The position numbers and the translations under genes are program-made. DNA of 64,000 nucleotides from Nannobrachium achirus (Eukaryota > Chordata > Actinopteri > Myctophiformes > Myctophidae), in contig OY997642.1 in the NCBI GenBank assembly GCA_963921795.1, forward strand, positions 45,564,385 to 45,628,384. Direction: 5' to 3'. The notes beneath the pieces are model-generated. The model searched no databases. It was not told the DNA's origin and saw nothing but the letters and a program-made list of their open reading frames with translations. Below are positions 16,149 through 54,284 of this stretch, piece by piece. Numbering within the stretch: position 1 is the first letter of the stretch; every line of letters starts with the position of its first letter.

Positions 16149-16230
16149 TATTTGAAAGTAGGCGATCTACACGCTACAAGCTAGTTGCATTGCGACGCGT
16201 TGTGAGCTTGTAGATCTGCTATTTTCAAAC
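16149..16230. repeat. Dispersed foldback hairpin, copy in hAT MITE
   Basis: The left arm TATTTGAAAGTAGGCGATCT is decayed. The right arm GTTGTGAGCTTGTAGATC followed by TGCTATTTTCAAA is intact. It lies at the same place in the hAT family as the shortened hairpin at 33474-33516. Confidence 0.75.
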
Positions 16231-16448
16231 ATTTTGCTACTTTAAGTATATTTTGAATTTTGATACCAATACGTTCATACTTTTACTCAAGTACATTTTG
16301 AATTTCTGACTTTTACTTGTAACAGAGTATTCTTACATTGCAGTATTGACTTTTACTTAAGTAAAACATCTGAATACTTTTCCACCACTGCCCACGTGGG
16401 AGCAGTAGTAGTGGACTGAGAAATCGTGGTATCTCTTCTGAGTTGAAA

Positions 16449-16865
16449 TTAAAGTTGCAAGTGATTATGTTTGGTAAAGCAAACTACTATTCTGATAATC
16501 ATTGCTGTACAGTGTTTGTTCAATAACAGGGGTCTCCCTGTCCCTCAAGCTCTTTAATAAACAGAAAATGTATTTTCAGGTGGGTTACAAATTTCATCCA
16601 ATCATGTGAGAGAACGCAGTTATCATCTTCAATTGTATAGTGTTCCAATTCTAAAGTTGTCTGCTCAATTTAACTTGTTTATCCTTTATTGTGTATGATC
16701 TCTCAGGAAATTGTTATCACAACCTGAAAATGTATTTTCTGTTTATTAAATAGCTGGGGAAATGGGGAGACCCCTGTTACTGAACAAACACTCTATAGCA
16801 ATGACTACTATGGGAATATAGAGCTATTTAAACACTTGTAAAAATATCACTTACACCCCCTTTAA
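16449..16865. mobile_element. Foldback MITE with TTAAAG ends
   Basis: The two halves are inverted copies. TGTTTGTTCAATAACAGGGG at 16527 pairs with the complement of CCCCTGTTACTGAACAAACA near 16772, and AAACAGAAAATGTATTTTCA pairs with its partner near 16725. The outer ends read TTAAAGTTGCAAGTGAT and, inverted, TTAAAGGGGGTGTAAGTGAT. It is non-coding. The superfamily is not certain; a TA-targeting mariner-like MITE is possible. Confidence 0.8.
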
Positions 16866-17435
16866 ATGAGCCTACTATATAAACTGGGTCATAAAATGAA
16901 ATACCAGTCGCGTTAACAGTAAGCTATAGTATTCTCTCCCAGCAACACGTAGGCCAAGATAAAAACCACAGCTTAAAAAATCCCCCCATTCGTTTCTATT
17001 CATCCACACTACACGCAAATCTGAACACCTTAAACACCACACACACATGCACACGCACACATGCACGCACGCACACAAGCACGCACGCACGCACACACAG
17101 AGAACCTTTCAGCAGATGAACAGCCCGCCAAATGAGGGAGTAATCCATCACTGGTGCCATTTTCTATTTGCAGGGTCCCTCTCCTCAACAATAGCTTGAC
17201 TGACAGTAGAAGATAAGGCCTTCTTTTGACTGAAACACAGAGCGGATGGGAAAACAATAAATAGCTTAGACACCACTCGGCGGTATGAGGAAACAAAAAA
17301 TATGACACGTTTGTCTTTGATCTTACCACAAGCTTTCCATTTATAAGACAAAAAAACTAAAGTAGCAATGTTTGGGTTTAGAAGAGAAAACAGGTCCAAC
17401 AATATTATGATCCAGATTTTGTTTTTCACTTGTAA
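16866..17435. other. Non-coding DNA with a short CA/GCAC tract
   Basis: An imperfect mix of CACA and GCAC units lies at 17038-17098. Nothing else is recognised. Confidence 0.5.
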
Positions 17436-17635
17436 GCCAAGTGAAAATATCAAGTCTTTGAAGGTTACAGACAAGACCTGCAAACGACGGCAGGAGCATG
17501 CGTCTGTCTGTCGAGCAGAAACGTTCTATCTCCAGATTGGATCTTTTAAAGCCCTATTTTACGCTTCATCGCATGACAATGTCTTACAGAAGTAGTGTGA
17601 GCTAGTAAATCTGCTATTTTCACTATCTTATCAAT
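17436..17635. repeat. Interspersed repeat family A, first copy
   Basis: It opens with CCAAGTGAAAATATCAAGTC and TTTGAAGGTTACAG and shares CGAGCAGAAACGTT..TCTCCAG-type sequence with copies at 20768 and 21930. It ends with a single foldback arm (17593-17625: GTGTGAGCTAGTAAATCTGC, then TATTTTCACTAT). It is non-coding and the class is unknown to me. Confidence 0.65.
17593..17625. repeat. Dispersed foldback motif, single arm
   Basis: GTGTGAGCTAGTAAATCTGC plus TATTTTCACTAT is a diverged right arm of the recurring hairpin. No partner arm is seen. Confidence 0.6.
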
Positions 17636-17716
17636 CGATTGATTGATTGATTGATTGATTGAGTGAGTGAGAGAGTGATTGATTGATTGATTGGTTGGTT
17701 GATTGATAGATAGATA
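17636..17716. repeat. (TTGA)n tetranucleotide array
   Basis: About 80 bp of TTGA/TGAT units with GAGT and GGTT variants. It sits at the 3' boundary of repeat family A, so it may be that element's tail. Confidence 0.9.
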
Positions 17717-18500
17717 CGAGTAAACAAATATGAGTATTCTTCAATTAACATTCAAAAGGCTAAAACACAAGCTTGTTTCTATTGTGGTCCTTTGTAAGGT
17801 TGAAATAGGTTAAGTGTATCTGTGTGTTTTATAAATAATAGATTTTCAGGCCTAAATGCAGCCTTCATATCTATTCCTATATAGCTATCAGAGCTATGGT
17901 CACTGAGTTATTGCCATTTGAAGTGTTAAAAACTGCTGTAACACTGTTGGAGCAACGGTGCTCCAGCAGTGTCTCCGGGGGCCATATGAACCCATCAACC
18001 CCTGAACAGTGTTTGTTGCTAGTTTCACGGATTGGAGCAATGGTGCGCCTGTGGCCACTGAGGCCCCCCAAGGGCCACATGATGTGACCCTTGGTGTGAC
18101 CGTTCTAATGGCAGACCCCTGAAGGGTGTTTGTGCCAAGTTTGGTGCGGTTTGGAGCAACGTTGAGCCTGTTGCCTCCGCCCCTGGTGGGACTATTCTCA
18201 TGGCAGTCTCGTCACCTTGTATATCCAAAACCGTTCATTTTATCTATTTTTTATTTATTTATAAAATAGTGAAAATAGACGATCTACAAGCACACAGCGC
18301 CTCACGGTGTTTGTGCCGTCCCCGGTCCACACACAGTCCACCAACCTGTGGACTGTGCCTTTAGGCAAATTTAATATAAGATTTAACTATTTAAAAGTAT
18401 TAACAACAGTTTGTGACTAAATAACTACATTGGATCTATTGGAACATGTTTTTTTTGTCATTTCCTGAAAAGGAACAATTATGGACATACTTTCAGGTTT
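17717..18500. repeat. Repeat mosaic (families A and B)
   Basis: 17768-17860 (TGTTTCTATTGTGGTCCTTT) matches 21760-21830. 17876-18230 holds three rough reiterations of (G/T)TTTG(G/T)..AGTTT(C/G)..GGATTGGAGCAA-type sequence. 18404-18500 (CTACATTGGATCTATTGGAA) matches 21880-21900 and, inverted, 43264-43310. No coding capacity. Confidence 0.6.
18267..18305. repeat. Dispersed foldback motif, single arm
   Basis: TAGTGAAAATAGACGATCTA followed by CAAGCACACAGCGC is a left arm. No right arm follows. Confidence 0.7.
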
Positions 18501-20103
18501 CTACCTGAAAGAAAGAAACAACAAAGTCACACACTCTGTGACATAATAGCCCAATAATAATCCTTTTTAAAGGAAAGTAGGTAATTTAAGCAAGACACAA
18601 TGGACTTATTGATTGGGACCTCTACGCTTCAGAGATGGTTAATGATGAAATTCCTCTAATGATCATTTTCTAAAATTGGGTATAGAGCATTTGGGAAATA
18701 AACTAGTTATATATTAATAACAGTACAGGCCTAATAAGTTTCCTTTTTTCAGCCTTTTCCTTTTCTTTCAAAATGTCTTCTGAGCTTCTGCATTGGGAGC
18801 GTCATTAACCATTCATGGCAATAGGGGTGAGAAATGGACTCAGAGAGCGGGGTGTCCGCACAAAATAATTACAGATATTAAATATTCAACATAAAGCTTC
18901 CTATTATAGCATCAGCACCGCAGAAATGTATAGGAAACAAATCAGAAGATTAATACAAATGTAATATAGAGATGTAAACCTTGACATTTTCCCTCCTCTA
19001 ACATTCAAGCGTAATTGAGACTTTGAGAAGTTACACGTATAATGCCACTGCCATTAACCTTAGTCAAATTTCCGCACAGAGAAAAACACAGATTTGGTCA
19101 ATAGATTTTTAAGACACTGTTGCTCCATAGAGTGGTCCTGTAGAGACTGACTGCAAGGAGAAATAAGTGGATGATGGAAATGGTGCTTGGTGCTCCAGGG
19201 CAAGGGTACAATATTTCAAAAAAGCAAGAGCCTTCTGTGCTATTTTTAACTCTTAATAGACATTTTGGCTGAATTTACAAACTGCCAAAGTGCAGAAAAG
19301 GAAGTGAAAAGAAAATATTGGACCCCCGAGACGGTTACACCCATGAAAAAAAAACACAACCGAGGAAAAATATGACCCTACTTTAGAAAGTAATGAGGAA
19401 GAATTGCAGTCACCATGCTTCATTCTTTATAAGGACTCCCATTATTATTATTATAGCACAAGAACAGTATAGCATAGTAGTATATACCATAAGTATATGT
19501 AAAAATATATCCACATTTCATATTTAATAACTCACACACTATTTACTATTTCAGTGGAAAGAATTTGAAACCAGAAAACATCATGGCTGCTCAAATTCCC
19601 TCATCAATTATTGCCTAAAGCTATGCTTCTGGCCATGACCTCCATCGTCAACAATACATTCAATATGTCAACAAGTGTGGCACCCTTGACAGACCCACAT
19701 CTAGCTACCCGTCAAGGTGAGAAAACACTAGGCGCCAACTTTAAGAGTTGAGCTCAGAAAAATAAGTCATTAGAAATTAATAGATAGACAAACAATAAAA
19801 CCTGTGAGAGATGAAAAGGCAGAAATCTCATTGTTGTAATGATCCAAACATTGTGATTTTTTTTATCCCCTCTCCCCCCCAAAAGAACTCCTTGTAGTAA
19901 ATATCACAAAATTAGCTGATCTAAATAACATGGACGTAAAGGTGAAATCCTAATCCGAGAAATATAGTTTAACAGTAATCAATCTAATAATCTATCTTAA
20001 TATTTCAGTGTTCTCTTTTCAAATCTTTTTATTGAAATACAATGTCGCATTGAGGTAGGTATATACATAATGACACCCCAAATCCCATTCCCATCAGTTA
20101 AAG
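18501..20103. other. Unique AT-rich non-coding DNA
   Basis: About 1.6 kb without microsatellites or recognised transposons, the cleanest unique stretch in the first third of the window. No coding frame above noise. It could hold a conserved regulatory element, but I cannot test that here. Confidence 0.5.
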
Positions 20104-20767: not shown

Positions 20768-21240
20768 TAGCCAAGTGAAAATATCAACAGTCTTTGAAGG
20801 TTACAAAGCTGAAACCACGGCAGAAGCTTAGACAACAACATATATCCACTCCGTCTGGCAGAAACCTTGTATCTCCAAGTTTCAAATGTATACTCGTAAA
20901 GTACAGCCCTGCTTCATCATACAAGACTGTCGCAAACAAAACTAGTGGAAATAGCAGATCTACAAGCACACAGGTGTGCGGCGTTGTGTGCTTGTAGATC
21001 AGCTATTTTCACTATTTTGAATCTTTAAAATGATAAATACAAAACAAACGGTTTTGGACATACAAGGTTTCCACCCGACACCAACGATATATCCTCTCTG
21101 TCTGACAGAAACCTTGTATCTCCATATTTCATATTTTTGAGCGGTGGTCACAACGCTCCTATACGTGGCCGTGTGTGTGGGTATGTCTGTCTCCGTCCGT
21201 GTCTGTCTGTCTGTCTGTAGCCTACAGTACCTTTTATGAC
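20768..21240. repeat. Interspersed repeat family A, second copy
   Basis: CCAAGTGAAAATATCAACAG, then GCAGAAACCTTGTATCTCCA (20857), the foldback hairpin, GGTTTTGGACATACAAGGTT (21050), and a second GCAGAAACCTTGTATCTCCA-like phrase (21107). The phrases around the hairpin are themselves partly inverted copies. After 21140 comes GAGCGGTGGTCACAACGCTC, shared with 23820 and 25900. Confidence 0.7.
20946..21020. repeat. Dispersed foldback hairpin, full copy
   Basis: The arms TGGAAATAGCAGATCTACAA and TTGTAGATCAGCTATTTTCA are separated by a short loop around GTGTGCGGCGTTG. Stem about 28 bp with few mismatches. Confidence 0.9.
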
Positions 21241-21287: not shown

Positions 21288-21288
<1 letters not shown>

Positions 21289-21479: not shown

Positions 21480-22235
21480 GTAAACCACCGCTCAGTTCAC
21501 ACGGGTGTGATTTTTCTTTCTTTTTACCCCCACAAATGATTGCCCTATTTTTTACACTCCTTCCTATGACAGTAAATCACCAAAAATAGCCCAGATAAAA
21601 GCTCACAGTGTTGGGAACTGGTAGATCTACTATTAACAAAAAATGACATGCCCAAAACATTTGAATAATGCTTTTTTTTAATGGAAATATGAGTGTACAC
21701 TGCGTAAGAAATATGAGCACACGTAACATTCAAAAGGATCAAACACACCAAAGCCTGGAGGCTTGTTTCCATTGCGGTCCTTTGTGAGGTTTGAAGTGGT
21801 TAAGTCTGTCTGCGGGGTTTTATAAATGTTTAACTAGTGGTGACAAATATGAACAGGAGCCTGTTAATAAATAATAACATCTACATTGGATATATTGGAA
21901 CGGGTTCTCTCCCCCCAAAATTCCTGAAAAATACCGGTTTTGGACATAGAAGGTTTCCACCCAACAGCAACGATATATTGTCACTGTCGGGCAGAAACCT
22001 TGTTTGTCCTAGTTTCACATTTGTACGCCTTTCCGTTAAGTAAAGCCCTGCTTCATCATACAAGACTGTCGCACAAAACGAGTGAAAATTGCAGATCTGC
22101 AAGCACGCAACGCCTTGCGTTGTGTGCTTATAGATCAGCCATTTTCACTATTTTAAATCATTTTTTAAACGATAAATCCAAAACGAACGGTTTTGAGCGT
22201 ACAAGGTTTCCACCCGACAACAGCGATATATGATG
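21480..22235. repeat. Interspersed repeat family A/B mosaic, third copy
   Basis: 21485 ACCACCGCTCAGTTCACACG plus GGTGTGATTTT matches 24190 and, inverted, 25247. 21760-21905 matches 17768-17860 and 18404-18440. 21930-22235 matches 20860-21125, with the hairpin in the same place. Confidence 0.7.
22082..22155. repeat. Dispersed foldback hairpin, full copy
   Basis: The arms GTGAAAATTGCAGATCTGCA and GCTTATAGATCAGCCATTTT flank the loop region CGCAACGCCTTGCGTTG, which is itself self-complementary. Confidence 0.88.
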
Positions 22236-23572: not shown

Positions 23573-23579
23573 AAAACCC

Positions 23580-23612
23580 ACAGCTAATCTACAAGCCCAC
23601 AAGTGCAACAAG
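23580..23612. repeat. Dispersed foldback motif, single arm
   Basis: ACAGCTAATCTACAAGCCCA plus CAAG is a diverged left arm, directly after the 41-bp tandem repeat. Confidence 0.55.
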
Positions 23613-24220: not shown

Positions 24221-24258
24221 AGTAGTTGTGAGCTTGTAGATCAGCAATTTTCAAGTCG
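24221..24258. repeat. Dispersed foldback motif, single arm
   Basis: AGTTGTGAGCTTGTAGATCA plus GCAATTTTCAAG is a right arm. No left arm is seen upstream because the microsatellite intervenes. Confidence 0.7.
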
Positions 24259-25096
24259 CTGATGCGACGATGCGTATAGTTTCAAAGTGGTCGTGTGGCC
24301 TAGATAATATCTCTTTATGGGGCTTATTTTCGTACACCTGGTTGCTTATTTCTCTCTCAAAATCTGACAACACTGGTCTTAACTGCTATTGACATTCATG
24401 CCGCCACAATGGTTTAATGAAAACGCTGTCTTGTACGGCTATACCAGCATCTTTGCTGCCAATGAGGGCATGTGAAAACATCTCAAAAACAAAACTTTCA
24501 GTACGTTATGCTAATTATTTTGCAGGAGAAATTCCAGAACTGTAATGAAAACATGCTCATAGTGAAGAAGTAAATGTCACCTGGAGGAGACTGGGGAGGT
24601 GGTGGGCGTTTGATCACTGACAGGCTGCAGAATGTAGCTGTGACAATGCTTAGCAGGCGTGTGAACAGTGAGTAGTGATCTGCTTTAAAAAGACTGCCTA
24701 AACTGAACTGTGGAATTGAGGGTGTGAGTGTTGTAGCTTGTTAGCGAATGAGAACGAAGGGAGATGAGTAAGGTTGAACGTGGAGTGACCGTCTGACTGT
24801 CGTGGGTGTATGTATGCATGTATGTATGTATGTATGTATGTACAGTATGTGTGTATTAACTTGTTAGCGAATGAGAATGAGGGGAGAAAGACTGAGTGTG
24901 GAGACAGTTTGTGTAGCCGTGCCTACCTAAACTATCGCGATGTTTGATTTTTGAACGCTACAAGCTTCTCTGTAAAACAGACAAGAGGAAACAGACTGTT
25001 CTTATGACGCACTCTTGATTGGCTGCGTTATTTACATCAGCATTGTTGTTGTGGAGCCGCCTTTATTAACAGGAAAACTGATGAAAAAGATAGCTA
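24259..25096. other. Non-coding DNA, short (ATGT)n
   Basis: No gene. An (ATGT)n of about 33 bp lies at 24810-24842. The phrase AACTTGTTAGCGAATGAGAA occurs twice (about 24737 and 24859), a diverged local duplication of about 120 bp. Confidence 0.5.
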
Positions 25097-25967: not shown

Positions 25968-25992
25968 CAACGTATTGTGAACTTGCAGATTT
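25968..25992. repeat. Dispersed foldback motif, decayed arm
   Basis: CAACGTATTGTGAACTTGCA plus GATT is the weakest member of the set and may be coincidental. Confidence 0.35.
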
Positions 25993-27813
25993 TTTGTTTT
26001 GTTTTGTGTTTGTGTGTATGTATATTTCGAAGAGTTATTGGTGTAAAGGGAAAAAAGGAGCGTGCCTAGTATATATAGCCCTGGGGGAAACCGGTTAACT
26101 AAGTATACAGGGTTAATCTTGAATTGCAGAAGAGGGCATCAGTCACATGCCTTCCACAGGTTAATGTCTCTTCCCAGAGCCGTGCAGCTGATCCAATCAG
26201 ACAGAAGTGTAAGGAGAACTGTAATGTAATTTCTCCCTGCATCTCCCGCTGTACTTCGTCCGGCGTTGGCCTCTAAGAGACCCCCCACAAGGAAGATGTC
26301 CAGATCACTTCAGCTCCTCAAAAATGATTCTTGCCACAGCAGTTTTATCTCCCGCGGTATTAAGAACAGTGTTACCTTTCACAGCAGTTGCAACACAGGG
26401 GGGTGTATGTACAATGTTTGAATAGATTCATGACAAGCAAGTACAGTTTGCGCCTCTTTTTTTTGCATTTCTTTATGAATATTTTCAGTTAAACCAACAG
26501 TTTTTATTCCTCTCCGTTCTAAATCATATTCAACAACACAGGTTTCCACGGTTAAAATTAAACAAACTAAATTAAACAGCAACCAAGTGAGAAATATATT
26601 GAGGTCGTGGTTGTTTTGTTTTGTTCTAATTTCTCAATGAGCATGAACTTGGTATTCAATTAAACAATTACACTACACTCACAACTACTGAGCCAAGGTT
26701 TTAATTGTGTAAGGTAGTAAATAACCACTTCCTATATACTCACAGAAGGGGTTTTTCTCTGTATTCAAATGGTTTTGGTAGATCAAAGCCGCATAGGTTA
26801 TGTGGAAGCTCGCAATGTGAAAACAGCTCACGTAACCCATCTGTCTTGACTTGGGACAATATGGACATTCTTATGGCAGTAAAAGGATATTCTTGGGAAA
26901 TATAACTGCTGTGGTAACACTATGCCTAATTTTCCTGGGGAAAGGTTTTCAAATTGTGTCAGCAGATGGTGAATGCATGTGGGCGGACAAGCCACAGTGG
27001 CAGCAAAATATGTTCACTGTTGAATTAAACTAGCCCCCTGTCCCCTCAGTGACTATGGAAATTAGTCTACATGTCAAATACCGCAAGCTAAATTGGAAAT
27101 TTAAATCAAGTCACAAAGCACAATTAAAATAAACAGGTTGTGGAAACGAGAGCACTGTACTCTGAGGCAAAGTTATGATTCAAATTTCCCGTAATAAGTT
27201 GAGTTAGGTAGGCGGCATCAGAATCTTAATGGATCAAATTGGCTAGGATGTGATGTTTGCTCAATAAACTCCAAATGAATAGGGATCTGAATCTAATAAC
27301 ACAAACCCCCTTCATCTGCTCTACTGATTGACTCACAAGGCACTACAACATACTGTAGTTTTCCTGTATGAATTTTCATCTGCTCCTGTTCCTTTGTCCA
27401 GTCCAGCTAGTGACTCATAAAAAGTCGCTGGCCTCCCCCTCCTAATAACGCTGACAGAGACAGAATAGCTCTTTCTGGCAATATTAACCTGTAGGCTTTC
27501 AGTTGGTAGGGCAAACAGGCCAGTAAAAACCCATCAATCTACATTATTGGCTCATTGAAGGGGCTGGATGTGTAGCGGACCAAAACCCCAGTCTGGGAGG
27601 AAATCCTTTTTAATGGAGGTCTCCCTTTACATGAAGTCTGAAATAAATGTTTCCCCCATTCACCCCTACGGTGGACCTTCCATTTATCATCCACGTTATA
27701 GGCAGCGCAGTCACACACACTATAATTTCCTAATTTAAAGGCTAACTGACAAGAGATTTCCTCCGCACGCAAGTCCAAAGATGAGGAGGGTGAAAATAAT
27801 CACAGCAGACACA
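25993..27813. other. Unique AT-rich non-coding DNA
   Basis: About 1.8 kb with no microsatellite, transposon end or exon that I can support. Frames stay under 80 codons. Confidence 0.5.
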
Positions 27814-28093: not shown

Positions 28094-29700
28094 ATGGCAG
28101 CATCCGCGAGCGCTGGTAAAAAGGCTACATTTGTGTGGACTGACGAGGAGTCAGAGCTACTCCTTCATGTTACACTAGATTATAAAACGAAGAAACTGCA
28201 GGAGAATGTCGACTGGGAGTCCTGCCTGACCAAATACAACGACATATTGGTGGACTTTGAGGCGCGGTATTCACAGTTTGTTGACAACAACAAATTTCCC
28301 CATGAAGTCGGCGCCATCAACAAGGACAAGTTAACAGCCAAACTAAAGGCCGTCCGAACGAAATTCAGGGGTGCGGTGGACACAGGGAAAAGGAGTGGAC
28401 ATGGGCGTGTGGTGTGCCTATATTTCGAACTGTGTTCCGAGATTTGGGGTGGATCGCCTGCCACGAGCGCTATGGCCGAGGGGTTCGAAACGGAGGACTT
28501 GGAATCATCTCCAACGGGACCACCTTCACCACACTCCCAAAACGAACCCAACGAAAGTCAGCCAGCTGATGACACGGCCAACCGCACAAATCATCGCAGG
28601 GATATGCTCCAGGTAATAACATGTGTAACCTTAAAGCTAACGTGCTTCCTCTGGGCAACTGACTTTCCCCCTTGGGACAATAATTAGGTATCTATCTATC
28701 AACTACAGGCTACAGGCTCAACTCAATGCGACATGCTGTGAGCTTGTAGATCAGCTGTTTTGTACAAAAAGTGTAGCCCACAATATTCCCATAATCGCCT
28801 GGTGACATGCTTAAAAGCAGGTTATATAAATGATTAAAAGTAATGGTTTTATGGATTACTATAAGACATAACATGGTTTCATACTTGGCAATAATTCTGT
28901 ATTGATTTCAAGTTAGATTTTGATTTCTAGTAAGCTGTTCAAATGTATTCTCTATGCAAAACTAGCTGTGTCTGCATGGAATACACATTGCACCCCCCAC
29001 GCGTGCCTCCCCCACACCCAGGTTAAACAAAAGCAGCCCCTTTCCAGGTGTCATCTGTGATTATAATTTGCATTGTTTCAGAAAGACAGTACAGACAGGA
29101 AGGAGACAAGACAGTCATCTTCCTTTTTGTGTGCTAAATCAAAGATCAGGATGACAAAAGTAATAACATTTTTCTGTTTTTATTTTCTAGGCATCGCTGA
29201 CCGGCCACAGAACCAACAGGTTGAGGAGAAGTCTTCCAGCTGAACATTTCATGGCTGAAGACCTCAAAATGAAGCAGAAGATGTTGGACTTCATGGCGGA
29301 CTCAGCCAGGCGCAGCGAGGAAGCAGCAGACAGACGCAGTGAGGAAGCATCCAGACGCAGTGCAGCAACCATGGACATTATAGTGGGCAGTATTCAGGAA
29401 ACTTTAGCCCTGATGAAGCGGTTAATTGACCAACCTCGCACTGTACACCCGCACGGTAACAGCAGTGGATATGGACAGTCCCAGTTCATGCCTGGCCAGT
29501 ACCCTGGCCAGTACCCTGGCCAGTACCCTGACCAGTACGCTACACCCCACAGGCGCTCATTATTCTTTGCCGGCGACCCACATCCCTCCAGATCCCATAC
29601 ACCCTCACCAACATTCATGAGCCCCCATCCACCAGCACCAGCCCAAATCACCCCACAGCGGCGAACCCCCTCCCCATTCGAAGCAATTGAAGATGCTTGA
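28094..29700 (+). CDS. Harbinger Myb/SANT-like DNA-binding protein (two exons)
   Basis: The accessory protein of a PIF/Harbinger element. In the family it binds the transposon ends and helps recruit the nuclease to the nucleus. Exon 1 (28094-28612) gives 173 residues and ends at CTCCAG|GTAATA. Exon 2 (29191-29700) follows TTTTCTAG and gives 169 residues. Both junctions are phase 0, so the spliced frame stays open for 342 residues. Residues 13-120 form a Myb/SANT-like (trihelix-type) domain starting FVWTDEESELLL. Residues 130-170 are acidic and S/P-rich. Exon 2 has a charged helical stretch with SEEAADRRSEEASRRS, likely a coiled coil, then a Q/P/Y-rich tail with QYPGQYPGQYPDQY repeats. Without splicing the frame would stop at 28687 after 197 residues. 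The ATG lies in AGAATGG and is the first in frame. The intron is a prediction from consensus sites. Confidence 0.85.
28613..29190 (+). other. Intron of the Myb-like gene
   Basis: It has a GTAATA donor and a pyrimidine-rich TTTTTATTTTCTAG acceptor, 578 bp. It holds a single arm of the dispersed foldback motif at 28720-28763. Confidence 0.75.
28720..28763. repeat. Dispersed foldback motif, single arm in intron
   Basis: GCTGTGAGCTTGTAGATCAG plus CTGTTTTG is a well-kept right arm within the Harbinger intron, so the motif is part of, or inserted into, this transposon. Confidence 0.75.
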
Positions 29701-30158: not shown

Positions 30159-30171
30159 GTTTGATTTGATC

Positions 30172-30202
30172 AATAACAACTTGTAGATCTGCCCTTTTTC
30201 AA
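30172..30202. repeat. Dispersed foldback motif, single arm
   Basis: AACAACTTGTAGATCTGCCC plus TTTTTCAAG lies just past the poly(A) signal of the Myb-like gene. Confidence 0.6.
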
Positions 30203-30947: not shown

Positions 30948-31059
30948 TTCACGTTTTGTACAGATACATAAATGGGTTCACTTTTAAGAATGACTTTTTG
31001 GCAGCTTTTCCAAAAGTATCAAATCCCTGGACCATTATACTACAGTATCAAAGTATAAA

Positions 31060-31100
31060 AAATTGAAGATCTACAAGCTTGACATGCAGCGTGAAGTGAC
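31060..31100. repeat. Dispersed foldback motif, single arm
   Basis: TTGAAGATCTACAAGCTTGA plus CATGCAGCGTG is a left arm in the 3' UTR region of the transposase gene. Confidence 0.55.
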
Positions 31101-31262: not shown

Positions 31263-32546
31263 TTAAGGGTCAAGGTACTCAGCGAGAACCCTCCTCACTC
31301 TCTTGCCCTCGGCCTCATTGGTATCAGTAGTATAACGATTGCACTCTGTGGCAGGCTGTCTGTTCCGTTCTGCTTCCAAGGCTGCCAACGAGACCTCCTC
31401 CGTAGCCTCCTTGTTGGCCACACAAAAATTGTGGAGGACAAAGCAGGAGTAAATGACATAGGGCAGGTCATCCATGTTTATGTCCATAGCCCTTCGTAGC
31501 GCGCCAAATTTTGCCTTGAGCTGACCAAAAGCGCACTCAATGACCATACGTCCCCGACACAATGATAGTCCAAAGTACTGCTCCCGAGGTGAGCTACCAC
31601 CTAGTGCATAGTCCTTCATCAGGTAAGGCAGCAGTGGGTAGGCAGGATCACCCAGAAGATAGACTGGTATAGGCAACTCGTCCTCTACAAGCCGTTTTTT
31701 CATAGCAGGAATCCTGCCACTCTTCAAGTCTTTGTTTATCTGGGAATTGGCAAAAACACGTGCATCATGCACACTCCCTGGCCACTTTACCACAACATCA
31801 ATGAATCTGTACTTGTAATCACAGGTGGCTTGTACATTAAGGGAATATCTGCTTTTCCTGTTGATGTAATCCGTCGAGTTGGCTCGAGGCGCCTGCACGT
31901 CTATGTGGGTGCCGTCGACAGCTCCCAAACATTGCGGCATGCCATGCGCACGTTCGAAACCAGCAACCAGATCCTCCACCTCGCGCTCAGTACATGGTTT
32001 TTTGATGTACTTTGGTCCTAGGTGTGTGGCGATAGCTCTGCAGGTCTCCCGTATAATGACCGATGCAGTCGGTCGGGACACGCCGAAGGAGTTAGCCGTC
32101 TTTAGTATCCTTCCCTCATCGTTCAGGTAATACAAAGTCATTGCAACCCTCTTCAGTGGATCAATCGGTGCCCGCATATTTGTAGTTTCCTTTTCGATAT
32201 GCGGTCGTAGTTCTTCGCACAAGGCGACGAGAGAGGCCCTGGACATGCGGAAATTCACCCTCCATTCACGTTCTCCAACAACACCATTGACAAAATTGTC
32301 CCAGAAATCGCTGGTCCTGCCTGGAACCACCCAACACTCCCTTCTCGTTGCTTTTCTCGTTCTTCTCCGGGGTGGGTTTGTCATGTCTAGAAATTTTAGA
32401 AATCGTTGGTGACGCAAGTGTCCTTTTCGTCGGTGTTCTTCTTCTTGGAGCAGTCGGTGTCGCTCTTGGAGCAATAATTGTTGGCTTAAAAGTTGTAGCA
32501 AAAACTGTAGCTGCTGGCACAAGAACGCTAACACTCCGACCTCCAT
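31263..32546 (-). CDS. PIF/Harbinger transposase (DDE nuclease, HARBI1-like)
   Basis: The nuclease that cuts and reinserts the element. The 427 residues are uninterrupted. Residues 1-50 are Q/L-rich and then basic ([10 protein letters not shown] near 60-69), a plausible nuclear signal. A helix-turn-helix-like segment spans about 128-170 ([20 protein letters not shown], then [12 protein letters not shown]). The DDE_Tnp_4 core follows: GAVDGTHI with D211, GSVHDARVF with D261, GDPAYPL with D300, and [12 protein letters not shown] with E337. D211, D300 and E337 are the expected catalytic triad, and all are present. A downstream LHNFCV motif, usual in the family, is at 371. Length fits the family. 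The start ATG follows two 14-bp direct repeats and a (CAA)n 5' leader. A shorter product from the Met at residue 55 would keep the whole core. No stops or shifts, so the copy looks young. Confidence 0.95.
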
Positions 32547-32597
32547 TGCTACTGTAGTGTTGCTACTGTAGTGTTGTTGTTGTTGTTGTTGTTGTGG
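32545..32597. repeat. 5' leader repeats of the transposase gene
   Basis: A 14-bp unit TTGCTACTGTAGTG occurs twice (32546-32573), followed by seven or eight TTG units. On the coding strand this is a (CAA)n leader just before the start codon. Confidence 0.85.
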
Positions 32598-32788
32598 TGT
32601 GTGTGAGCAACTAGTGGGCTGGACCCTTCATGGAGCAGGGGAGGAGGAGCAGGGGAGGGGGTGTTATGACATCATCGCACTCTCCCTCGCCGATTTCCTT
32701 TATTACACAGCTGCGTATTTGATGCGAAAACGCACTTTTCCACTTTCAGACCCGAATTCAAAAAAGTGTCGGATTAGGTCATAAAAAC

Positions 32789-33219: not shown

Positions 33220-33601
33220 CAGTGGTGTAAAGTAACTAATTACATTTACTTAAGTACTGTACTTAAGTCCAATTTTGAGATATTTGTACTTATTTACTAG
33301 AGTATTTCCAATTTCCAATACTTTTACTTCCACTCCACTACATCTCAGATCCAAATATTGTACTTTTACTACACTACAATTATTAACTACTAGTTACTTT
33401 GCAGGTATACATTATAATATTATAAAACATACATAAACCACTTCAGCCCTATTTTATACCTACCGGTATATGCTATTTGAAAATAGCTGTTGTGAGCTTG
33501 TGCTATTTTCAAACATTTTGTACTTTTACTTTAGTTCATTTTGAATTACGTACTTTCACTTGTATTCCTACATTGCAGTATTGATACTTTTTCCACCAGT
33601 G
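33220..33601. mobile_element. hAT-type MITE, complete copy
   Basis: The ends are CAGTGGTGTAAAGTAACT and, inverted, CACTGGTGGAAAAAGTAT. The flanking octamers ACAAAAAG (33212-33219) and ACAAAACA (33602-33609) match at 6 of 8. The 382-bp body is the same family as 15231-16390 without the piggyBac insertion, and shows the uninterrupted sequence ACTTAAGTCCAATTTTGAGA across that site. Confidence 0.88.
33474..33516. repeat. Dispersed foldback hairpin, shortened copy
   Basis: CTATTTGAAAATAGCTGTTG plus TGAGCTTGTGCTATTTTCAA keeps the outer stem but has lost the GATCTACAAG segment on the left. Confidence 0.65.
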
Positions 33602-34506: not shown

Positions 34507-35999
34507 TTGATTTATATATGGTTGTGCATTGTGTCATGCACCGAAGATTATTGATCTATAAGCTCACAACGTGTGTAGATCAGCTATATTTGATGTGCCA
34601 CACTGGCACGCAAAATTCGGAGGCGGAGGTCTGTTTGTAGTGGAATGTTAATCCGCACTTGACCATATAGGGCTGGCCGCTATTCGGTTTTATTTGCGAA
34701 TGAAACTTCAAAGCTTAATTGTATTCATTTATTTGTACAGCTCGCTTCTCCACTTCTCCAATAGTAAATGTAGCTGTCGTTAGCAAAACATGAGTTACAA
34801 AAGGATGAATTAATACTTGATTTTAATGAGTATTATGACATCACATACACATTAGTAGGGTTGGGCTGGTTACAGTATATTTTTCATTAGCATGCGATTG
34901 ACACATGCAAAAATCTGTCATAATCACCATTTGTTTATGTTTTTCTCAGTGAGTAGCACTACAAGAGCAGCCCATTCTATTCTAAACCAAACGGATAGTG
35001 ATTCATTTTCGTGTAGCCTACACAGCTACCCCTGTAAACCTCCCTACTCCAAGCTACCGTGTACAGGGCAAATGGCTCTGTTCTGTCCTCGTGCTGGTTT
35101 TCCGTTGTTTTTGCCATGCAGGTCAGAATGGGGCACTGTGAGTTATTAACCTCCTCACTCAAATTGTAAGTAGTAGCATTATCTGCATGTAAACCAGCCT
35201 CAGTGACCTTCCTGTGTGCTCTAAATGTAATAGGGCATTTCACTGGGCCCTCTCTGTGCAACAGGGCTTAAGCAGTGGGAAAATGTCACTTTTCCCCATG
35301 AGCTGACATAATAATAAGACACGTTAAGATGCAGCTAACTTCACTTGAAGAACTTAAGACATGTTTTATAGTTTGTTATAAGTTGGGGTCAGACACCACA
35401 CAAGATCTGATATTTTCCATTTTTGAAAATCTTTGAACATTTTGGAATCCATCCTTTTTTTTCTCCTATGTGCCTAACTGCACAAGTACTGCAGTCTACA
35501 ATTTGATAATGGTTTTAGCAAAAGAGAAACAAGGTAAAAGAACAAGACCCCTTTAATTCCCTATCTCATTGCAGGCTGCTTTTGAATTGATTAACCAAAT
35601 GAAAATGGAAAACAGTAGTTAACCTAATTGAGCTCATCACTTATTCTTAATCTTTAATAGCCTACATGATAGGTCTATATCTCTTTTAGAGAACATTACT
35701 TTCACAATAAATGTCTACGAGGTTGAAGAGGCTATGGTTATTTGCTCTGTGCAAAATAGAGAGGAAACAGTGATATAATTAAGCCCAAATACAAAATTAA
35801 CAGCTGCTAACATTAGGTTTCATATAAACACAATGTGTCTTCCTTTCCATCAGTACTCCTCCAGTAAGCTACCAATTCACTATACATCGAATGATTGCTC
35901 AGTAAAACGGATTGTTCTGTAGCTTTCCTGCTACGTGTAGTAGCAGCAGTCTACTGCAGCAGGTTCAAAATGGTTGCCGTGAGACAAGTGCAGGATTGC
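34507..35999. other. Unique AT-rich non-coding DNA
   Basis: No gene or array. A hairpin-motif copy lies at 34549-34592; nothing else was seen. Confidence 0.5.
34549..34592. repeat. Dispersed foldback hairpin, compact copy
   Basis: TTGATCTATAAGCTCACAAC and GTGTGTAGATCAGCTATATT give both arms, but the inner GCTTGT part of the right arm is deleted. Confidence 0.7.
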
Positions 36000-36444: not shown

Positions 36445-39400
36445 TTTGTGACTGACAACCATACATTATTATTTCAATATACAACCATTCATCAAGTTTT
36501 ATTTTATTAAATTTACTTTAGTACTTTGTGCACAATCATTCCCCAATACAGAAGCAAATGATCAGTGTTGTGACTGAACGCATTCAATGAGCGATCTTTC
36601 ATGTTTTGTCAAACGCATTCCCGTTCATTCTGATGTCCGTTAACGGCGCTCGTCGGCTCATTAGCGCGGGCGACCGTCGTCTCGTCTTTCTTTCAAATTG
36701 AAGTGCTGCGTGTGCATCGCCACCTCGTTACGTCTCCCAAGTAACAATCTCTCGAGACAGAGTCAATGATGGCTATGCAAAGGAAGAGAGACAGACCGAG
36801 TGGGCGTCGCCCATCCTTTGATGATGGGTTCCCAGATTGCCCAAGTAAAGCCTCATACGTCGTCGTATGTTGCATGCCGAAAATAGCTGATCTGCAAGCT
36901 CACAACGCGGCACATCCACGAGACATTGTGAGCTTGTAGATTAGCTATTTTAACCATGCGGAAACATGCAGGATGTGTGACGGTTAGAAACCTCTGCCTT
37001 CACAATAAGTGTGCAGGAAGAGTGGGCACCTCAATGTTAAATTGGATGAAATAATTGCTGTGTGTGAGGTTCTATATGGGTTGTGTCAATCATTTTGACA
37101 AATAATAGCTCGCAGCAACATATACAAAAGAAAAGAAGACAAAAAATAACTACGTTAGTTCATGTTGGGGAACCATGAACTTTTGTCCAAAATGTGGAAT
37201 TATGAACTATGAAATGAACTACAGTAGTTCATTTTAGAAGTTGTAGAATTTGAACAAGTTCATGTAGAGAGTGAACTTTCCCAACACTGCATGATATACT
37301 ATATTATTACATTTGCTCACTATATGCCCTATGCCTATGACATTGACTCTTAATGGGATGACCAACCTTTATTTCAACAACAATAAAGACCAAACTTTAT
37401 TGTTTTTTATTGTTTATTGTTTATTGTTTATAGAATGATGTTACCCTAAAGCCTCATTTAGACTTTTGCTCACTGAAAATAATGTGCTGCGTTGCAATTG
37501 TTTAGTTGAAAAGCGGTTATCTGGGTGAGCAATAACGTATAAATTAGGCTTAAAAAACTGGTGTGAACGATCATGGACCACCAAGTGGGTCCTGCAAAGA
37601 GCTAATGCATGCCACGTAATGGGGCAATTGAGGTTTCCCCGCTCCCCAGACAGAGACACAAATCCTCGAGGCCTATCTCTTCCGTTTGCACCCCTGCATC
37701 AATAATACAGACTGACACACACAAGATACTCTCAAGGAGAGCCAGTCACTTTGCTTCGCCAGAGTGCTTACCGTGGAATAAACAAATGAGAAGTGACAAT
37801 CCTTGTGATAGTCCATACATCCTCATGAATAAGATACATGCTCTCCTTCACTCTCCACACCGTAAGCACTGCTCATGTGCTATTCCGTCTGGTGTTGTTT
37901 TCTTCAACAGATGACATTAACAACTTAAATAATATTGTTGGGAGTATCAGTCCCAAAAGATACACAACTAGTTTGGCACCATGAGCCTGAGGGATCATTT
38001 AAAAATGCTATGTGATGTGTGACAGATCATAATTGAGTGATATAAATAGACCTGATGTGTTGATCATTCGAGAACTAGTGTTCTAAGAGCTTGTGAAACA
38101 TCGTTCATGAGTTTCATACAGATCTGTGAGAGCGCAAAAAAGCAGCGGTGTATATATGGCTCCCACTGGGACCTCCGAACAGGGGCAAGGGAGAAGGAAA
38201 AATGGTGTATTACTTACTGCACATAAGAAATGTTTTACAAAGAATAAATAAATAAAACACCTGTTGTACTGCACTGTATGATGTAGAAGATTTAACATTC
38301 TTACAAAGACCTATAAGATAGCAGGAACAAAACAAAGACATTCTGTGATGATGATAATAGAAACAACCCGAGTCCCCATTTTTAAATTCTAAAATTGTAA
38401 ACAGAAAAGTAGATACAGTACATCAGATATCAGATACCCAACCATGCCCACTTGATATAGCCTGAACTCACATGTACCCCTGCTGGACTGAGGTAGAATC
38501 ACCTCACACAGCCTTCTCTGCTGTGTCTCCCTACTGTATCTCCTTCACACTAATTGTATACCTTCTGATAGGAGATCAGAAGAGTAATAGTTTTAGTTCT
38601 GATGTTTATGTAAATGATACTCAAGTATTACAAGTATTTGAATATTTTGAATCTGCATTTAACTCCTTTTTGACCTAAATCAATGTATGTCATTTTAAAA
38701 GCTCTGACCATCTATTTGCTGCACAGGGTGCACATGCTGGGTTTATGGTTTTAGTGACTTTTGAATGGGTTTAATGCAACACCACTTAAATGACATTGTA
38801 AAACTAAAACCAAACCTTGCAGTAGCAAAAGAAAAGGAAACAAAATTATGTCAGACTCAGTAGGTTTCTGCAGCTTTTCTCTAGTCTACAGCCTCTAATT
38901 AGTTGAGACATTTTACTTGGTGGCTGGTTATTTCAGCCATGGGGGGCTGCTGATATGGTAGGTTGCACTGGACTCGCTCACAGGACAAAGATGCCATATA
39001 AAAGGCTGATTCAGGAATCTCTATCCCGTTGCTCTCCTCAAATTATGTAAAACAAGGCCAAATAACCAAGAACAAAGAAGACAATCTGTAACACAAGGTC
39101 ATGCTGGCTGTATGATTCCTGTTAGAGTCAGCACTGGCTGACATGGGAAAAATATTCTTAGCGAAAAGCCAAGGTGGTTTGGTAAATGGACATAACTACA
39201 TCAAAGTGGGAAAGGCAATTTGCAGACACCAGCGATGATCGTTTTAACACTTCGCACAGGTTTACTATACACATAATAGTAATTACTTTGCAGCCAGGGC
39301 CTTGATAGGGATGTTCATTAGCCTATTGCAGAGACAAACACAGTTGATGGATTAAACAACGAAATATAACGAGATGTTCAAACGTACATCCGTCCCAGTT

Positions 39401-50215: not shown

Positions 50216-50216
<1 letters not shown>

Positions 50217-50305
<89 letters not shown>
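50217..50305. repeat. (CA)n microsatellite
   Basis: About 43 CA units with almost no interruption. Confidence 0.97.
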
Positions 50306-50307
<2 letters not shown>

Positions 50308-50678
50308 ACACATATACACACTTACTTTTAGGTTAGGGTAGCTCCTAGGTGAATAATCTATGTTATTTAACGAGCCGGTAGGAGTAACCCGTAACAAGGA
50401 TTTGTGTGAATAGTCTATAAAACAGTGCAGCCCCTACTAAAGGTTTCCTAGGAGTACATGTTGCCTCCAATTACTGCCATGCCTTAACCTGTTGTTTTTA
50501 ACAAGGACAAATATGTGTCAAATAAGTATTACACTGTGATATGCGGCCCTGTCATACCGATTTGCACAGTTCTGGTCAGCAGCCTGGCATTGAGGATCCA
50601 TTTCCCAACCTTCAAGGTGAGAGTAAAGGGTGATTTATACTTACCGGTAGTTGAGTGCCAGTGTCACACATCGTGACA

Positions 50679-50749
50679 TAATAGCTGATCTACAAACTCA
50701 CTGCCCGCTGCAGCATGACGCATTGTGAGCCTATAGATCTGCTATTTTC
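50679..50749. repeat. Dispersed foldback hairpin, full copy
   Basis: The left arm AATAGCTGATCTACAAACTC and right arm CATTGTGAGCCTATAGATCT plus GCTATTTT flank the loop CCCGCTGCAGCATGACG. Confidence 0.88.
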
Positions 50750-50830
50750 TGTGCATGACACCGTATGCAACAAACATCAGGCATAATGCTGGACGTAGCC
50801 AAAAGCAACTCTGTATTCAGAATTCAGATC

Positions 50831-51047: not shown

Positions 51048-51834
51048 AGGACATTAACCTTTTTTATTAACTAGTTTACAGCAAGCTGTGCCTGATGTGA
51101 TCCCAGTCATTCAGAAAAAAGAATCCAGCTCATCTCACAGAAGAGACATGCTAAAAGCACTTTGTTGAAGGCAATAGAACCTAGTTGCTAAGCACATCCC
51201 TATCGAGCAGGAAGAGCGATCTTTGCCGCAGCGCTAGCGACCAGGGCGGCACTTGATGTCAGTGAGGGGTGTTGAACGGGAGGAGTGGGACAGAGGCACT
51301 AAATCCTGGGGGCCTCCTCACTGCCAGGAGTGTCAGTAATGTACAACAGCAGTGGCAACGACAGTTCTCAACGGGCTGGAAAATTAAAGCCCGGCCCAGG
51401 CCCAAATGAGTTGAAGCCTGAGCCTGATCATAATTACATTAATCAGCCTGAGCTCGGCCCTATCTGAAAACAAAAGTGGCGGCTTTGCGCATTGGCAAAT
51501 GCTCAGATAGCACTACGGGATGAGGATGAGAGAAATAGATAGGGATTCATGCGAGAGAGAGACTAACCAACTTGCTACAGGTAGTAGGTGAATATATTTT
51601 TGAGGTGCGTGGCCCTGTGTAGAGGATCCAAGAACACATGTGTGTGGTTGATTTTGGTCTGTCAACTGAAATGGGGTCCAAACCCCGGTTCAAGAATCTA
51701 ACTCAACAATATAATATTCATTCATTTAACTCCAGTGATTCATGTATTAATGTGTTTATTTTAATCATGAACAAACTTTCATAAGAACTGTAACCATGTT
51801 TCATGTTTCCAAAATATTTTATAACTAGAAGCAG
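51048..51834. other. Non-coding DNA
   Basis: A stretch at 51380-51470 (AAAATTAAAGCCCGGCCCAG and TGAGCTCGGCCC) looks like an old repeat fragment. No gene. Confidence 0.45.
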
Positions 51835-52615
51835 TGCTCTTCCGAGCACAGGTCTCCACCAGGCCAGGCATCCTGGTGGTGCTATAATAGGCCAATGTAA
51901 AAAGTGTGGCATGTGTTCTTCACCAATCTTAGACCTTTCACCATGAGGCTGATTTGAACATTTTGTAGTGTAATTTCTTTCTTGGACTTTTGCGAATGTC
52001 CGTGCACAATTACAATCGCACGCTGTGTTCATGATTTGAGGCATTTTGTTCGAAGCGGATCAATCCTGCAAAGTTTGGAGGCCAATCTTAGCCAATCAGG
52101 ATGGAATATTTAATATGGGTCAAATCCGTCTTGATCATAAGACTGTAGAGATACTGTGTACTGATTTGTGTTAATTTTGGGTAAAATCTGAAGGAGTAAT
52201 ATCGAAAAATGTGTCTTACATAAGTCGGCCTCCTGGTGGCGCTATAAAAGGCTGATGTGAAAATGCAAGGAAAATGTTTTTCCTTGGCCTCTAGGGAGTG
52301 CGCTTACAAAGTTTGAAACTGATCGGTGGAGTTATAGGTAAAACCACGAATTGGCCTGTTATAGCGCCACCATGAGGCTGATTTAAAATATTTTAAGTGG
52401 CATTTCTTCCTCGGCCTAGTGGGAACGTGTGTGCGCGATTTCATGTTAATTGCACTCTGCGTTTGTGATTTGAGGCATTTTGTCCAAAACGGACCAATCT
52501 TACACACTTTGAAAGCCAATCTCAGCCAATCAGGATGGAATATGGACAATCAGACAGATCCATGTCGATCACATGACTGTAGAGATACTGTCTACCGATT
52601 TCAGCACTGCTGGAA
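51835..52615. repeat. Interspersed repeat with GGTGGCGCTATAA modules, second copy
   Basis: Related to 6905-8026. It shares CCTGGTGGTG..CTATAATAGGCCAATGT, CCTGGTGGCGCTATAAAAGG (52230) and the inverted GTTATAGCGCCACCATGAGG (52358), with several hundred bp nearly the same. It lacks the (ACGG)n tail and CTTCGGCTGG end of the first copy, so it is 3'-truncated at about 52600. It starts after CTAGAAGCAGTGCTCTTCCG. Confidence 0.8.
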
Positions 52616-53013
52616 GAATACTTCTGTGGATCCCTCTCATTATATTTTGCCAACAAAGCAAATTACCCAGAATATCAAACCCTTTTTTGGGTTGCTCAGG
52701 GCAAAGTGAGACACCACCCACCTCCGCACCATCCGTTGCTATCCTCCCACTCCTGATCAAATCAAGTTTATAGTTCTGCAACTTTACCTTTCTTGCTCCA
52801 TCTTCTGGTGTACTTTTTCCAATGCCAACTTCTTTTCAATCTCCACTTGTTTTGTTTTATCAAGCTTCAACAGTAACATAAGCTTCTTCTTTTTGTTGCT
52901 CAAATGTCAAATTAATGGATGCCAAAAACGGTAGAGAAGCCAAGAAGGCAAGACTTCTTGGGCCTTTAGTTTCCACAAAAAGTACATTTTATGTTAAAGG
53001 ATTAGATATTCTT

Positions 53014-53493
53014 TTAAAGCTATACTCTGGAAGTTGCTCAACTACTGGTCAGTAGCGGTATTGCAGGTATTTTACAAAAAACGTGGTCATGTCTGCTTTT
53101 TTCGGCCATAGAGTGGTCTCACGTCCCTCTGCGAGCAGGCATTCAGGAGTAACATGCTACGACACCTCACCAGTGTAAACACTGCTGTTGAGACAAGCTA
53201 CTTCCTGAGAAGACGGCAAGACGCGCTGTGATTGGCCGGTAGTTTATGATCCGCGCTGTGAATGGCCGGTAGTGTATGATCTGGGAGACACGTATACGGA
53301 TTGATGCAGATGACGTAATTTTGCCGGGAAATGCAGTCCCGGTCACGGCCACACGGCTCAGTAGAAAACATATAAAGAAAAGGCTTTTGGGGCTGAAATT
53401 AACGGAGTGGGTGTTATAAAACTTTAGCGATTTAATAGTTAGGACAATTTTAAGATTTGTTTTATTAATAAAGTTACATAGTATAGCTTTCAA
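53014..53493. mobile_element. MITE with TTAAAGCTATACT ends
   Basis: Left TTAAAGCTATACTCTGGAAG and, inverted, right TTGAAAGCTATACTATGTAA form the termini. A 30-bp direct repeat with CGCGCTGTGATTGGCCGGTA lies at 53222-53281. It is non-coding. The ends are shared with 57119-57342. Superfamily uncertain. Confidence 0.7.
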
Positions 53494-54107
53494 GTAATTA
53501 GTGTCAGATATTTCTTTAAAACAAAATGTACTGTTCTTTTTAACTACAATATATACGGTAGATTTGTCCTAATGATTTCATGCAGGTCCCTAATAAATGT
53601 CTAACTTCAGGTATTCCTCTGCAGATTCCCTTGACAATTACTATGCAAAATAAACGTGGTCCTTCCATAGCCGGAAGTTGTGAATTACCACACTAAATAC
53701 AAATTGAAAATGTGAATCTGCTTTTTCCCTAACCATATTAATATCTCTGTTGCACTCCCTTTCAATGCAATTACCTTGGCCCACACAAGATGGAAAGGAT
53801 TAAACATTCCCTGCGAGTTCTCTGACTAAGCCAAAATCACATGAGGTGGGTTAGCACAGAAGACTGCGCAGCAAAGCAAAGAAAGGGGGGGTTTAGGAAA
53901 ACAAGCTAATCAACATGCACAGACAGGAAGCTGTGCGAGTCCCGAGTCAAGCTGCCAAGCCGCTAGATAAAGATCTGTCTGACACGTAGCCTTTGAAATA
54001 ATCCACTTGTAAGTACACACCAGTTAAGAAACATTAACATCCAGCGAGGGAAAGGTGCATTTCTGACATGGGTGAGGACAGCGAGGGTGAGGAGATGGGG
54101 GGCAGTG
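53494..54107. other. Unique non-coding DNA
   Basis: Nothing organised was seen. Confidence 0.5.
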
Positions 54108-54249
54108 TGGACACCTAGGCCTGTCAGTTATTACATAATCGCGTGATCGCAATTATTTGAGAGCGTCGCAATTATTTTTGCATTATCACCATAAATGTTT
54201 CCATGTTGAACAATGTTCATATATTTTCAAACATTTTCAAAAATATTGG

Positions 54250-54284
54250 AAATAGCACATCTACAAGCTCACAACAGTTGCTTA
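54250..54284. repeat. Dispersed foldback motif, single arm
   Basis: GAAATAGCACATCTACAAGC plus TCACAACAGTTG is a left arm inside the hAT MITE. The palindromic element inserted directly after it. Confidence 0.7.

Follow-up and report, generated by a model that had tools for sequence, protein, structure and literature searches.

Bacterial REPINs or REP doublets and the palindromic elements of Rickettsia are short palindromes found in many contexts across a genome. Teleost Angel MITEs are imperfect palindromes that are kept despite sequence divergence, and a fold-back amplification model has been proposed for them. In mitochondria, repetitive hairpin-forming and double-hairpin elements are short and potentially mobile, and those of Allomyces lack flanking duplications (PMC2800124, available part). 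The CMITEs of the coral Acropora are about 100 bp long, target TTAA and are linked to piggyBac, and comparison of their families shows stronger conservation of a 75-bp internal region than of the terminal inverted repeats (PMC2872659, available part).

The motif described here, from a 64,000-nucleotide stretch of the Nannobrachium achirus genome (the window), is a 71-bp near-perfect palindrome with arms of 35 bp (AAAATAGC...GCTATTTT). It resembles REPINs as a short palindrome repeated in many contexts, whereas REPINs are bacterial and are moved by RAYT transposases. Angel, likened by description, is a whole element, in contrast to the shared core seen here. The mitochondrial hairpin elements, likewise likened by description, belong to organelle genomes, whereas this palindrome resides in a nuclear animal genome with transposons as hosts (PMC2800124, available part). 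The likeness to CMITEs, again by description, consists of a conserved internal core and, tentatively, of a TTAA target and a link to piggyBac; however, the available part of PMC2872659 does not describe the core as a palindrome and estimates approximately 1600 copies in A. millepora, against about a million arms here. The hairpin core in this genome is, unlike that of CMITEs, also found in elements with other end sequences.

A preliminary description of the window listed 16 places for the motif, and it is present, at least partly, at all of them. Eight copies of GATCTACAAG occur in the window (0.13 expected), as do 14 copies of a 20-base core with up to three mismatches (0.01 expected), and a 28-column arm profile scores above 12 bits at 15 of the 16 places. 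A 71-bp hairpin at 16155..16225, with a full-consensus right arm (48.1 bits) and the other arm degenerate, lies inside a family E element, which we take to be a hAT MITE. This element extends on the forward strand over approximately 15955..16391, as its similarity to sampled copies spans about -200 to +166 relative to the hairpin (near-duplicate loci L002, L003, L004 and L008 omitted), and contains TAAACCACTTTAGCCC at 16117-16132. A second copy of the element, with TAAACCACTTCAGCCC at 33434, carries a strongly shortened hairpin at 33474..33516, which lacks the core, falls below the profile cut-off and was identified by direct reading. Shortened centres are seen in a family B variant with GCACAC arms (20948..21009) and in a family B hairpin (22085..22145), and the centre is mostly lost at 34544..34592, where one arm scores 22.9 bits. 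A 72-bp hairpin, with imperfect inverted flanks GCATG...CATGC, is located at 36880..36951, and a 71-bp degenerate hairpin at 50678..50748 adjoins AGGGTGATTTATACTT, presumably a Harbinger MITE end. Other host elements include what we take to be hAT and Harbinger MITEs. A degenerate hairpin at 21583..21636 (27.0 and 17.3 bits) is an additional copy, beyond the 16 listed places.

The single arms on the forward strand are located at 18272..18299 (40.0 bits, with an outer flank resembling family B), 23577..23604 (12.2 bits), 31059..31086 (24.3 bits) and 54249..54276 (37.4 bits, with an outer flank resembling the family P1 hairpin L025:6832). Those on the reverse strand are at 17593..17620 (30.4 bits), 24224..24251 (38.9 bits), 25973..26000 (18.6 bits), 28734..28761 (40.7 bits) and 30171..30198 (17.0 bits). 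The weak arms at 23577, 30171 and 25973 are the least certain.

The exact 14-mer core GATCTACAAGCTCA has 202,460 matches (101,817 + 100,643) in the 1.66-Gb genome, against 2 (1 + 1) for the reversed control. In a 264-kb sample, comprising the window and twenty 10-kb stretches and including 11.3 kb of N, the profile detected 140 arms above 13 bits (loci L001-L008 omitted here, in the clustering of outer flanks and in the per-locus listing of arms) and none in the reversed sequence. Arms were found in 23 of 25 sampled stretches, and extrapolation from these gives about 1.0 million arms in the genome. Exact 15-nt arms face each other at a spacing of 0-30 nt at 24,844 sites genome-wide, and perfect centres of 33 exact bases occur at 379 sites; both controls gave 0. 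The genome-wide core counts and the spread over the sampled stretches therefore refute chance or an assembly artefact as the source of the motif, leaving it a negligible probability. Of the core strings searched in the texts of papers, one each matched in two publications with unrelated topics, a further search matched none, and a 19-mer of the motif had no match in viral contigs. The single match in prokaryote genomes, to a bacterial MAG, compares with about two expected by chance and was discarded. The GC content is 42.4% in 188.7 kb of genome sequence.

The outer flanks of 139 arms fall into 72 clusters, 57 of which have one member. Across 44 arms from 22 flank families, whose representatives were picked by hand, the identity between families stays at chance (0.23-0.40) from position -25 to -1 and then lies at 0.71-0.95 at 23 of the 24 positions within the unit, with a mean arm identity of 0.81; the profile was started at AAAA, so that this edge is partly set by the search, and the sequence beyond it was unconstrained. 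The exceptional inside position (0.33) is a variable A/C site. The differing contexts and conserved arms noted previously are borne out, but the loop, then described as varying, varies in a paired way. Both sides are changed in 23 of 43 pairs, which none of 500 shuffles reached, and the two arms carry an identical substitution in 54 cases, against 22.9 +/- 4.5 (50 pairs, with near-duplicate loci L002, L003, L004 and L008 omitted). The DNA of 36865-36970, around the hairpin at 36880..36951, folds at -30.2 kcal/mol with a z of -7.5; the z for the hairpin at 50678..50748 is just -2.2.

A strong fold and covariation are also expected of RNA, and an RNA-borne element, such as a SINE-like unit or a small-RNA hairpin, could have spread via reverse transcription. 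However, neither a shared tail nor a direct duplication is present at the edge in any of the 20 printed flanks or of the 22 families examined, and no Rfam family matched the window at gathering score; such an origin is very improbable.

Some of the hairpins form the core of a longer MITE, since 9,025 sites genome-wide have an TTAACCACTTGAACCC end at a distance of 18-48 bases from the hairpin edge (reversed control 0). Ten of 17 left arms run into the hairpin, counted with near-duplicate loci L002, L003, L004 and L008 omitted. In family D, TTAACC...GGTTAA is found at both ends in three of seven aligned copies; the same ends bound L028:386-495, from which the hairpin is deleted, and the ends of the L020 element read TAAA/TTAA. 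The CCACTTGAACCC element has inverted ends starting with CC, as in family D (CCACTTGAACC...GGTTCAAGTGG), and a CC start is typical of piggyBac-type MITE ends (PMC2872659, available part). Matches to piggyBac transposase that are free of internal stops are numerous in the genome; of 952 candidates, 116 were scored.

Families A, D, D2, E and P3 and the L020:202 element have in common a TTAACC-type end beyond the hairpin, and the apparent sharing therefore partly reflects common descent. It is possible, although somewhat doubtful, that all copies derive from one ancient MITE superfamily whose hairpin is an internal core needed for transposition, with arms and ends having diverged too far to be recognised and nothing transferred between families. 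Besides the common end, this agrees with zebrafish Angel, which retains its palindrome despite strong divergence, and with the alignment of 23 hairpins in four families. Arm identity there is 0.93-0.97 against 0.62-0.69 for the flanks in family A, and the arms are somewhat more alike than the flanks in families B (0.89-0.90 against 0.82-0.88) and C (0.85-0.94 against 0.76-0.89). The greater likeness of arms in some families adds weight to a common core and would be expected if the core were constrained, although the copies were chosen by arm score. In a gapped alignment, arm and flank divergence are equal in six of nine clusters, but gaps flatter the flanks, which have lower scores in most clusters when compared ungapped. 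The coral CMITEs, tied to piggyBac, offer a parallel in an internal region that outlasts the terminal repeats between families (PMC2872659, available part). Against a common core, the arms and flanks of family D are about equally alike, and identity between families drops to the chance level no more than one base from the edge. The earlier proviso that the motif might be only an internal part of one larger repeat applies to some copies, namely where the hairpin edge follows the TTAACCACTTGAACCC end, but 16 of the 22 hand-picked families showed no TTAACC-type end close to the hairpin, and the sampled copies are not all members of one larger repeat. These ends were sought with near-duplicate loci L002, L003, L004 and L008 omitted and with an end-motif profile that was seeded with ends beside hairpins and is biased to near flanks.

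The entire 71-bp unit is an inverted repeat, as the termini of a classical MITE are, but the direct target-site duplication of such an element was not seen: none of the 22 families has direct repeats of at least 4 bp at the unit edge. Exact 3-bp direct repeats occur there twice (0.43 expected), and the longest shared direct word within 20 bp shows no excess (4.14 against 4.14). Instead, the palindrome continues approximately 4-6 bp beyond the unit as a family-specific inverted repeat. With one pair taken per family (an earlier run had 53 pairs, including duplicates), 4.09 of the first eight outward positions are complementary against 2.48, a value as high in none of 5000 shuffles, and 2.41 against 2.21 at positions 9-16. 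The first outward position lacks complementarity in eight of 22 families, and families P1, P2 and P3 have about 6-11 complementary flanking bases. Of the two origins proposed initially, the evidence tilts to template switching over movement in trans, given the inverted flanks and the lack of a direct duplication.

Flank repeats that are inverted rather than direct, and their length in P1, P2 and P3, would also follow from insertion into the centres of existing short palindromes, such as cruciform or hairpin tips, the inverted flanks then being the two halves of the target. Near-joined flanks do occur in a few of the short forms (TTGTGACACAA and TTGTCACAA in family C, TTTGCCAAAATTTGGCAAA in P3); however, these are members of a graded deletion series, and, by eye, the exact joined form GCCAATTGGC is absent from 68 P3 forms and TTGTGCACAA from the 100 listed of 204 family C forms. 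Palindrome targeting is accordingly quite unlikely. No clear pre-insertion site was found among joined flanks in the sample or as the single-TTAA site of family D, whose exact pattern had no match. With L002, L003, L004 and L008 omitted, the candidate empty sites L027 and L011 were dropped as a palindrome deletion and an ambiguous case.

Short forms in three families resemble deletions of the palindrome. The suggestion that single arms are truncations thus holds in part, as deletion explains the single arms and short hairpins in those three families for which short forms were listed. The P3 form CTTTGCCAAATG (seven of 68) may reflect template switching and would fit a CAAA-repeat deletion equally well.

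Our tentative preference is that the 71-bp palindrome, the core of an TTAACCACTTGAACCC-ended MITE lineage, has been passed as a unit to other non-autonomous families, a reading that lies close to that of an ancient common core. Entry of such a unit into a new element may occur when the copied strand switches onto the hairpin, and the returning strand would recopy the few bases at which it began, producing the inverted flanks. The hairpin would then be amplified by whichever transposase mobilises the host element, and arm-to-arm copying could maintain the matching of the arms. The strongest form of this proposal, a protein-free 71-bp palindrome that parasitises the transposons of an animal nucleus by hairpin-primed strand switching without direct duplication, with mutual repair of its arms and about a million arms spread via many MITE families, is unlikely.

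If the hairpin is just a conserved MITE core, it represents a far larger instance of the puzzle posed by CMITEs, in which an internal region outlives the ends. If the unit does move between families, it would be a transposon parasite about as numerous as a major SINE, and hairpin-templated copying and palindrome deletion could be followed in thousands of natural experiments within the genome. The old idea of fold-back multiplication of palindromic MITEs would then become testable by occupied and empty sites.

The preliminary description placed a small foldback motif at 16 positions in the window, and the motif was present, at least in part, at all 16. Two core strings occur there 8 and 14 times, compared with 0.13 and 0.01 expected by chance. 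The window is part of contig C5 of a 1.6585 Gb genome in 564 contigs, and the exact core GATCTACAAGCTCA, a 14-mer within the arm, has 101,817 forward and 100,643 reverse matches genome-wide (1 + 1 for the pattern read backwards). An arm profile of 28 columns, used with a cut-off of 13 bits, detected 140 arms in the window and twenty 10-kb stretches, taken at round positions on contigs C1–C12, and none in the reversed sequence. Five further stretches drawn at random bring the number to 25, or 238.7 kb once N is excluded. These 25 stretches contained 149 arms, with 0 in the control, and the genome total extrapolated from them is about 1.04 million arms with a standard error near 17%; their 35 exact cores compare with 29.1 expected from the genome count.

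In the canonical hairpin the arm AAAATAGC(A/C)GATCTACAAGCTCACAACGCGTCGCA is followed, after a single central base, by its reverse complement. Of the 100 elements in the window and first twenty stretches, 46 are hairpins with both arms and 54 have one arm only. In a set of 50 pairs, with those of sampled loci L001–L008 included and near-duplicates excluded, 71 bp is the commonest length (23/50); 22 pairs are shorter, with a minimum of 38 bp, and five are longer. Exact 33-base centres were found 379 times genome-wide and exact 15-nt arms, with 0–30 nt between them, at 24,844 sites, with 0 in the reversed control of each. Adjacent cores in the first 200 kb formed 38 inward pairs, one outward and no direct pair. 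The loop, reported as variable, does vary, but not randomly: centre variants, among them CGTCGCA, CCTCGCA, CGGCAC(C/T) and CATCGC(A/G), recur in both arms. The arms covary. In an ungapped alignment of 16 hairpins, both sides were changed in 23 of 43 pairs and 87.2% of the cells were paired, figures inflated by kinship because five families contribute two related hairpins each; none of 500 shuffles was as high, and shifting the partners by 1–3 columns gave 33–44%. A young copy folds into a single 40-bp stem (−52.9 kcal/mol, z −20), and four window copies fold more weakly (z −2.2 to −10.2).

The edge of the unit is sharp in a comparison of 22 flank families, picked by hand and represented by one hairpin each. 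Between-family identity is 0.23–0.40 at 25 positions outside the arm and 0.71–0.95 inside, the sole exception inside being the variable A/C site (0.33); mean arm identity is 0.81, and the flanks are at chance level. A good part of the families have inverted flanks: outward positions 1–8 are complementary across the hairpin at 4.09 of 8 positions versus 2.48 by chance (0 of 5000 shuffles), individually significant at positions 1–4 and 6, with no excess at positions 9–16 (2.41 vs 2.21). Complementarity is missing from the first outward position in eight families and, where found, the inverted flanks are family-specific (e.g. ATAGTG, GTTGCGTGCTG, TTTGCCAA, TTGTG, TAGTG and ATTTG). Direct duplication is absent, with no direct repeat of at least four bases at the edge in any of the 22 families; a 3-base repeat occurs in two, versus 0.43 expected.

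In the sample, a hairpin lies within 300 bp downstream of 17 of the 23 matches to TTAACCACTT(G/T)A(A/G)CCC (at most two mismatches). With an end profile, built from ends next to hairpins and thus biased towards near flanks, 19 of the 160 near flanks scored higher than 10 bits, chiefly 38–57 bp out, compared with one far flank, one wrong-strand and two reversed-sequence matches. An iterated left-arm profile gave 17 matches (E < 0.05): ten continue into the hairpin (one of these shortened), three represent the opposite end and another three (L022, L020, L016) lack a hairpin; the remaining match, L028:386–495, is a TTAACC...GGTTAA unit from which the hairpin has been deleted. Genome-wide, TTAACCACTTGAACCC followed 18–48 bases on by AAATAGC, a pattern that covers the end and stops at this heptamer, occurs at 9,025 sites (reversed control 0). 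The 100 sites listed are mostly of one arm, ending in ...TTTAGCCA or ...GGTTCACCA; C1:139076, 223786 and 2231406 adjoin known cores, and C1:10007070 is the hairpin of locus L009. Because these four end-plus-heptamer sites adjoin cores or coincide with the L009 hairpin, the hairpin is, in part of its copies, carried by a longer, TTAACC-ended MITE, 191–196 bp in length (three family D copies). The left arm of this element can fold into a small stem of its own, CCCCAG...CTGGGG or CCCCAA...TTGGGG (L024:1454–1491, L028:455–495, L007:302–336), which seems to covary. Matches to piggyBac transposase without internal stops are numerous in the genome (116 scored of 952 candidates). On contig C2, 16 listed matches fall within half a megabase (71346413–71843994), all on the plus strand and 15 without internal stops.

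Outer-flank clustering of 139 arms gave 72 clusters, 57 of them singletons; since each hairpin contributes both its sides, the contexts number a few dozen, an inexact count, rather than 72. We take families C and E to be hAT MITEs, and the host near window position 50678 is presumably a Harbinger MITE. Family A has two hairpins per element, one close to each end. A 454-aa open frame on the minus strand at window 31263–32627 encodes a Harbinger-like transposase (DDE_Tnp_4, E 6.3e-30). Near the start of contig C1, the hairpin-adjacent flanks of four loci (L001–L004) are about 97–99.5% identical, and these loci are a recent repeat with the hairpin inside. The window also contains a ~430-bp repeat unit in tandem at 7006–7848 and 52009–52696, 44 kb apart, and two 78-bp copies at 9857–10105, 171 bp apart and each followed by TATG microsatellites.

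Short forms of the palindrome were collected genome-wide in three families, at 68 sites for P3, at 204 for C (100 of them listed) and at 50 for E. The partial palindromes grade into one another in length; in E, some identical forms recur as well. Frequent junctions, judged by eye, lie at short direct repeats in P3 (CAAA 7/68, TTTG 4/68) and at CTATT in C (five exact and two changed forms among the 100 listed of 204). Palindrome deletion can thus explain the single arms and shortened hairpins. No exactly joined flanks were seen among the short forms listed, the few closest being one to three bases away, and true empty sites are masked by the graded deletion products. The opposite of loss, tandem growth of the GTAGATCT part, was found at loci L042 and L031. 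Exact cores also stand in short direct arrays at C1:469826–469962 (37–43 bp spacing) and C1:744594–744655 (22–26 bp), so that arms occur in tandem too.

Our leading, still tentative, reading is that the hairpin has been passed as a unit between MITE families. Alternatively, it may have been inherited as the common core of one old superfamily, as proposed for coral CMITEs in the portion of PMC2872659 consulted. The choice hinges on whether divergence is slower in the arm than in the sequence around it, and on this the sequence comparisons are mixed. Gapped pairwise alignment, which favours flanks, gave similar arm and flank identities in six of nine clusters, more similar arms in two and less similar arms in one; ungapped, flanks score lower in most clusters. 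In family-wise alignments, where every copy was picked by arm score and the bias is towards arm likeness, arms and flanks were 0.93–0.97 versus 0.62–0.69 in family A (12 hairpins), 0.89–0.90 versus 0.82–0.88 in B (four), 0.85–0.94 versus 0.76–0.89 in C (four) and 0.86–0.94 versus 0.89–0.93 in D (three). Because of this mixed evidence and the choice of copies by arm score, inheritance as a common core is nearly as plausible as passage between families.

If the hairpin is passed between families, its transfer to a new element would proceed by strand switching on the hairpin, repair may keep the arms matched, and the transposases of the host elements would provide amplification. The core strings had no relevant occurrence in the literature text searched. 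Bacterial REPINs and Angel MITEs behave similarly to this hairpin. Mitochondrial hairpin elements do so as well, according to the part of PMC2800124 consulted. A bolder and rather unlikely reading is that a protein-free 71-bp palindrome parasitises other transposons, inserting via hairpin-primed strand switching. We class the hairpin as a very abundant palindromic core common to MITE families.
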